The notes below the pieces were generated by a model that saw only the letters and a list, made by a program, of their open reading frames with translations, was not told the origin of the DNA and searched no databases. 42,057 bases of DNA from a virus: the IMG/VR virus record IMGVR_UViG_3300023196_001369, positions 1 through 42,057 of that record; one strand, 5' to 3'. Numbering within the stretch: position 1 is the stretch's first letter; each line of letters opens with the position of its first letter. The position numbers were made by a program, and so were the translations under genes. This document shows, in pieces, positions 582-924 of the stretch.

Positions 582-655
582 TGGCACAGGTGAGGAGAAT
601 CGAACTCCTGCTTCTGGTTTTGGAGACCAGTGTGATACCATTTCACTACACCCTC
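582..655 (-). tRNA. tRNA-Trp (CCA)
   Basis: A 74-nt cloverleaf on the minus strand with anticodon stem CTGGT/ACCAG, loop CTCCAAA (anticodon CCA), T-arm AGGAG/CTCCT and encoded CCA (plus 582-584). The outer acceptor stem is weak: positions 1 and 3 are G-U and position 2 is an A-G mismatch, so the stem depends on four Watson-Crick pairs. It lies 12 nt downstream of the kissing-loop RNA at 668-737. Confidence 0.88.
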
Positions 656-667
656 ATTTTTTAAAAA

Positions 668-737
668 CACACTATCTTTGACCCTTTCGAGGCCTCTGTC
701 TCTGCAAAGACACCTTATTGCAGTAAGGCGTAGTGTG
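668..737 (-). ncRNA. Compact structured RNA with two perfectly complementary (kissing) loops
   Basis: A 7-bp closing stem (668-674 with 731-737) encloses a minimal CCT/AGG hairpin (683-692) and two abutting 5-bp hairpins with 6-nt loops: 697-712 (loop CTGCAA) and 713-728 (loop TTGCAG). The two loops are exact reverse complements, so they can form a 6-bp loop-loop helix. The minus strand is preferred because a U run (667-663) follows the closing stem there and because it sits in the tRNA transcription unit. It resembles a tRNA in outline but has no canonical D, anticodon or T arms. The family is unknown. It may act as terminator, processing signal or small RNA. Confidence 0.55.
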
Positions 738-742
738 CTTAT

Positions 743-776
743 AAAAAAGCCCCCAACAAATTAATGCTAGGGGCTT
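743..776 (-). terminator. Rho-independent terminator
   Basis: Minus strand: AAGCCCC pairs with GGGGCTT around a 16-nt loop and is followed by TTTTTT. It lies between the promoter at 896-924 and the tRNA array, so it should end or attenuate a short transcript of about 140 nt. Confidence 0.75.
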
Positions 777-805: not shown

Positions 806-865
806 TCAAAACATTCCCCATTCGCATGGCGGCCAGTAAGTAATATGTACTGTAGTTGTTGACAT
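806..865 (-). CDS. Possible 19-aa micro-ORF (low confidence)
   Basis: In the short transcript predicted between the 896-924 promoter and the 743-776 terminator, the minus strand has an ATG at 865 followed by 18 more sense codons and TGA. The peptide begins MSTTTVHIT and is rich in aromatic residues and cysteine near its end. There is no convincing Shine-Dalgarno sequence. The transcript may instead be a small RNA or simply the leader of the tRNA operon. Confidence 0.2.
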   Translation of the reverse strand: MSTTTVHITYWPPCEWGMF

Positions 866-895: not shown

Positions 896-924
896 AATAT
901 AGTACATCTTGACACTAATGTCAA
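896..924 (-). promoter_or_regulatory. Sigma70-type promoter TTGACA-17-TATATT (tRNA region)
   Basis: On the minus strand TTGACA (plus 919-924) is followed after 17 nt by TATATT (plus 896-901). The -35 box is half of a perfect inverted repeat, TTGACA-CTAA-TGTCAA read on the plus strand (909-924), which could also be an operator. It lies just after the gp23 terminator and faces the tRNA array. Confidence 0.6.

Follow-up and report, generated by a model that had tools for sequence, protein, structure and literature searches.

What is the short structured RNA that lies directly upstream of a tRNA-Trp gene in a 42-kb virus record, and why do two of its hairpin loops mirror each other exactly? This record, from a marine phage and analysed over its whole 42,057 nt (hereafter the window), carries T4-like head genes (gp23-type major head protein, portal and protease), and the closest named relatives of its gp23 are found in PA5oct and Vibrio phage 2.275.O (~70%). 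Downstream of gp23, the minus strand carries in succession a promoter, a leader ORF, a terminator, the element in question, tRNA-Trp, tRNA-Pro, tRNA-His and a manA-type RNA. As initially annotated, the element adjoins tRNA-Trp on its upstream side. The features on which the argument depends are the following.

896..924, minus strand: sigma-70-type promoter (TTGACA-17-TATATT) of the leader transcript, from a consensus scan, with an equivalent promoter in most homologues
806..865, minus strand: leader ORF of 19 codons, MSTTTVHITYWPPCEWGMF; its Trp codon is invariant
816..819, minus strand: 5' side of the antiterminator (GGGG), at the end of the leader ORF; GG is invariant and the codon's first base is free, with compensated changes in L083 and L097
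770..773, minus strand: CCCC in the 5' arm of the terminator, alternative partner of 816-819 in the truncated-leader fold
743..776, minus strand: conserved intrinsic terminator, from a terminator scan, with a 12-bp stem (747-776) and a U-run to 743; -20.5 kcal/mol
665..740, minus strand: the element, including all 10 bp of the closing stem P1, with four-way junction P1-P2-P3-P4, matched by covariance model R1 at 102.9 bits, with covarying pairs
712..729, minus strand: P2 hairpin, GCCUUA-CUGCAA-UAAGGU, with loop L2 (CUGCAA) at 718-723; varies across 31 close copies by a single wobble pair only, replaced and compensated in a divergent copy
698..711, minus strand: P3 hairpin, GUCU-UUGCAG-AGAC, with loop L3 (UUGCAG) at 702-707; complementary to L2 in 32/32 copies, three of the six loop pairs being changed on both sides in L302
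680..694, minus strand: P4 hairpin, GGCCU-CGAAA-GGGUC, with two covarying pairs
657..662, minus strand: A-run between the element and tRNA-Trp, pairing with the U-run 743-748 and lengthening P1 when the window and 10 homologues are folded
582..655, minus strand: tRNA-Trp (CCA), first in the cluster Trp-Pro-His (ARAGORN and Rfam)

Downstream of tRNA-His, the cluster also includes the manA RNA motif (RF01745; 149-353, minus strand), which scores 47.3 bits (E 7.6e-11), below the gathering score of 55.2.

Trp-codon attenuator architecture upstream of the element

Copies of the element found next to tRNA-Trp are preceded by a conserved terminator and by a short ORF that has a Shine-Dalgarno-like stretch; in most cases a promoter can be recognised too. 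To enter our parsed set of 85 leaders, a locus had to have a Trp-type anticodon loop or the element downstream. An unconditioned search, the pattern of which was the end of the ORF alone, with neither Trp nor tRNA as part of it, returned 76 stretches, 62 of them new. The next gene is tRNA-Trp in 61 of these new loci according to ARAGORN, and the sequence at that place in the last one (L256) also reads as tRNA-Trp. The element is absent from all 62, which makes it an optional cassette, needed neither for the attenuator nor for the tRNA.

All 45 distinct leader ORFs contain TGG, and the codon before a conserved Gly is TGG, AGG, GGG or CGG in 42 of them, a variation implying that GG is fixed as RNA sequence and that the amino acid is free to change. 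The leader GGGG pairs with CCCC in the 5' arm of the terminator, which excludes the terminator, and in the window the truncated leader folds as antiterminator at -19.3 kcal/mol vs -20.5 kcal/mol for the terminator. Two leaders with other terminators carry matching changes, their own pairings (-14.0 kcal/mol in L083 and -20.1 kcal/mol in L097) being better than swapped ones (-6.7 and -9.5, and -9.5 and -14.8, respectively). Antiterminator pairing is seen in nearly all distinct leaders, L119 and L157 fitting more poorly. In 35/45 leaders, the distance from the first Trp codon to the downstream GGGG is 13 or 16 nt, a geometry in which a ribosome at the Trp codon would leave GGGG largely free, while a ribosome that had reached the stop codon would mask it. 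In L083 and L119, the tRNAs are Cys then Trp and the leader codons Trp-Cys, a hint that leader codons follow the tRNAs that are controlled.

Judged from sequence, then, this architecture has the parts that define a trp-type leader attenuator (cognate codon, terminator and mutually exclusive antiterminator), and the upstream module resembles ribosome-mediated attenuation of a phage tRNA gene. It predicts that scarce charged tRNA-Trp would let transcription enter the phage tRNA-Trp gene, and the attenuator should hence boost transcription of that gene under scarcity, amounting to feedback on tRNA supply. Our search of the literature found no report of leader-peptide attenuation of phage tRNA genes or tRNA operons. 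Since the element lies downstream of the leader terminator, it cannot control it. The U-run that follows the element was also considered as a terminator and rejected, the true terminator lying upstream of the element (776-747, minus strand).

The element is a conserved RNA family

The element is a real RNA family, matched by Infernal at E 1.6e-27. A scan of IMG/VR with a 17-base pattern returned 92 stretches, 80 of which are true copies, with nearly always identical spacing; 31 of these ~80 copies, all in viral contigs, are distinct and make up the alignment of close copies. Standard pairs fill 99.7% of its cells when the nested stems P1-P2-P3-P4 and the loop pairs are counted, vs at most 44% in slid controls. 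Two-sided changes affect six pairs, four in P1 and two in P4, and L2, L3 and five of the six P2 pairs do not vary. Each of 34 whole records has one copy, a count per record since all are fragments. The fold of the element itself reaches -21 kcal/mol (z -2.2), with equally good folds in 5/200 shuffles.

Much of the structure proposed in the initial annotation was borne out. On the minus strand, P2 and P3 are indeed two abutting hairpins, the 6-nt loops of which (CUGCAA and UUGCAG) are exact complements, and the presumed third mini-hairpin is a genuine 5-bp hairpin (P4), the pairs of which covary. The closing stem exists as well, but it has 10 bp (665-740) rather than the 7 first assigned, or more still if the U-run 743-748 pairs with the A-run 657-662, so that P1 closes a four-way junction of ~76 nt that includes the two abutting hairpins.

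That the RNA belongs to no named family also held, there being no Rfam 15 match at the gathering score or at E <= 5, although it may have been described earlier under another name. BLASTN with both types of element against 50,697 phage records gave short partial matches only, no named phage among them carrying it, and a free-loop pattern found none in GTDB genome contigs. We rejected an HDV-like (theta) ribozyme since the covarying P1 joins both ends around a nested four-way junction and Rfam gives no HDV match.

Loop complementarity is kept in a divergent homologue

Whether loop complementarity is lost in homologues, an outcome that would speak against the initial annotation, was checked in a divergent homologue, which came from searching the whole records of Trp loci that lack the element. 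Present in two records (G056 and G057; 37.8 bits, E 6e-9), it forms the intervening segment (IVS) of a permuted tmRNA. Its L2 reads AUACAC and its L3 GUGUAU, and all six loop positions still pair, three of the six pairs having changed on both sides (C-G to A-U, G-C to A-U and A-U to C-G). P2 has likewise been replaced, with four two-sided changes. With the divergent copy added, the alignment has two-sided changes in 15 pairs, a number that 0/500 shuffles reach and slides (four at most) do not approach; this copy was fitted to a covariance model that holds no loop-loop pairs. Each set of loops pairs with its own partner at -6.1 and -4.3 kcal/mol, vs +0.7 and -2.1 kcal/mol for crossed loops. The unconstrained nested minimum-energy fold of the divergent copy is -22.6 kcal/mol, vs -17.8 kcal/mol for the family fold computed without the loop contact.

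Complementary hairpin loops kept by compensatory change, the mark of kissing loops, are thus seen in these sequences for one divergent lineage, and within that lineage the comparison indicates that the loop match is under selection. This is a single lineage in the strict sense, because the only divergent loop variant found occurs in two contigs with an identical element sequence. A refined model (R2) run on 57 records found no further divergent members, and patterns freeing L2, L3 or both, or freeing P1-P3, found no other loops in true copies, their extra matches being due to chance.

How the two loops meet is a separate matter. The initial annotation held that they can pair fully; their complementarity and its selection stand, but complete pairing within one molecule is doubtful. 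P2 and P3 abut with zero linker, and by simple A-form geometry six loop pairs arranged as a coaxial kissing complex would put the stem bases 41-48 A apart, vs a backbone reach of 6-7 A; full pairing within one molecule is therefore unlikely, as the abutting hairpins would have to span that distance. This modelling suggests that the loops pair only partly, side by side, or between molecules, and makes contact between molecules likely.

Two slots in precursors of stable RNAs

Copies of the element either precede tRNA-Trp (or Cys-Trp) or form the IVS of a circularly permuted tmRNA. In the Trp-type loci, it lies ~75-82 nt before tRNA-Trp (counted from P2), two loci having it before Cys-Trp. In the tmRNA type, ARAGORN and Rfam put it exactly between ...CCACCA and GGGGCTGA, the position of the IVS, and on folding P1 reaches almost to the acceptor stem. 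No tmRNA adjoins the copy in the window, which is therefore not an IVS; that description applies to its tmRNA-type homologues. In one Trp-type record (L115), the element precedes tRNA-Trp and the tmRNA has a plain 37-nt hairpin as IVS.

Both slots can hold other RNAs. A second, unrelated RNA is found in each of them, the insert in the Trp slot of L258 and L271 aligning with the tmRNA IVS of G006 at a score of 64 (best of 2000 shuffles, 38), and the Trp slot of G006 itself holds the 70-nt element. This second RNA is stem-closed, and its core around AAGCAACAGA and CTGATAAACTGGGA is shared by L258 and L271 (terminator to tRNA-Trp) and by L308 (331-389, tmRNA IVS). Nine named phages (RcXuper, RcSimone-Hastad, Melnitz, Cp1R7A-A1, DSS3P8, RpoS-V10, EliS-L02, MD18 and DSS3_MAL1) have stem-closed structured tmRNA IVSs of 88-142 nt, mutually unlike at a glance except for those of MD18 and DSS3_MAL1. 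In the latter two (L287 and L286, respectively), the insert has 98 nt and a structure that includes a tRNA-like T arm, and a GOLLD RNA match lies just upstream. In L253 and L284, the slot between terminator and tRNA-Trp is taken by a small ORF instead of an RNA, and this ORF (MTDSEYWRWMKSQVE) has two Trp codons. The short tmRNA IVS of L105, considered as a deleted element, shares only a few letters with it and is not claimed as such. These arrangements make the slots look like places where cargo RNAs are carried, to be cut free with tRNA or tmRNA.

What the element might do

The reading that we favour, with moderate confidence, is that the element is a cassette RNA released with tRNA or tmRNA processing and acting in trans, with its loops pairing mainly between molecules. 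The cassette occupies one of two slots, each within the precursor of a stable RNA: in the first it lies just 5' of tRNA-Trp and follows the Trp-codon attenuator, and in the second it separates the CCA end of a permuted tmRNA from its 5' end. The RNase P cut at the mature 5' end of tRNA or tmRNA, together with 3' processing in the case of tmRNA, would free a small stable RNA, which would then act in trans; we infer this mode of action because there is one copy per record, phages differ in the slot they use and the element is missing from most Trp loci. Its loops would kiss hand in hand, mostly from one molecule to another, or else pair only in part inside a single molecule. A bolder extension, which we regard as speculative and rather doubtful, is that in T4-like marine phages the two processed stable-RNA slots are interchangeable cargo-RNA holders and that the element self-assembles through its loops into dimers or rings.

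An unlikely alternative is a cis-acting processing or insulation module, whose fold would aid maturation of the neighbouring 5' end by RNase P or distance the terminator hairpin from the tRNA. In its favour, every copy is immediately 5' of an RNase P site, either that of the tRNA or the GGGG end of tmRNA, and P1 extends nearly to it, but a spacer is not needed, since the first tRNA call begins at the first base past the matched terminator in 42 of 56 element-less leader loci, simple 29-37 nt hairpins fill the same place in some phage tmRNAs, and a processing spacer leaves unexplained both the near-invariant P2/L2/L3 core and the compensated loops. A ligand-binding aptamer, tuning in riboswitch-like fashion how the precursor of the tRNA or tmRNA is processed or how stable it is, is improbable, despite the compact junction, almost invariant core and loop-loop contact known from aptamers and despite a riboswitch candidate of marine phages, the manA-type RNA (PMC2864571), in the same tRNA cluster; the terminator is upstream and there is no expression platform downstream, and the divergent copy has altered most of P2, L2 and L3, P4 and its 3' junction being better preserved.

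The two-state switch suggested in the initial annotation, opposing P3 to a helix between UCUUUG and CAAAGA (675-680/705-710), was rejected as main mechanism and is quite improbable in any form. Its helix does exist, 94.6% of cells being pairable across the 31 copies and the forced fold only 2.8 kcal/mol worse, but not one of its pairs shows a two-sided change and one fails in five sequences. That the element is a decayed tRNA, a functionless remnant, is scarcely credible. Its topology is cloverleaf-like and the tmRNA IVS insert of MD18 and DSS3_MAL1 has that T arm, but neither Rfam nor ARAGORN matches the element to a tRNA, five unpaired nt separate P4 from P1, CCA is absent, and an RNA this strongly conserved, with compensatory changes that extend to the divergent copy, is not decaying.

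Comparison with known systems

The upstream module shares with the trp operon leader a short leader peptide with a Trp codon, a terminator and an overlapping antiterminator, but it precedes a phage tRNA-Trp gene rather than biosynthetic genes. As for the element, it adds a small phage RNA family that is supported by covariation and has a rare feature, complementary loops. In phi29 pRNA and the bicoid mRNA dimerisation domain, hairpins on a junction have complementary loops that pair between molecules. The element is like them in carrying complementary hairpin loops on a junction, although we know of no sequence relation and nothing suggests a role in a packaging motor or in mRNA localisation. 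Theta ribozymes, which are HDV-like, also adjoin phage tRNAs (PMC10879173); the element is like them a small phage RNA at a tRNA border, but it has a nested four-way junction with an end-to-end P1 instead of the HDV double pseudoknot.

ROOL and GOLLD occur in phages and prophages close to tRNA islands, and kissing loops between molecules assemble them into homo-oligomers (PMC12286853). They are likewise structured RNAs borne by phages beside tRNA genes, with conserved loop-loop contacts, but they have several hundred nt vs ~76 for the element, which has no Rfam match to them and is also found in tmRNA IVSs, and for which the steric argument suggests putative oligomers. Finally, in the literature on tmRNA the IVS is regarded as missing from the mature molecule, and one case of a tRNA-Ala within an IVS is mentioned (PMC11915505). 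In tmRNA-type phages, the element is exactly this segment of the permuted (two-piece) tmRNA (RF01849/RF04321). Unlike the usual bacterial IVS (mostly 5-29 nt in a sample that ARAGORN could parse, with three longer and none resembling the element), it is a conserved RNA and is found away from tmRNA as well, which suggests that the IVS of phage tmRNA, usually considered waste, may hold conserved cargo RNAs that are found elsewhere too.
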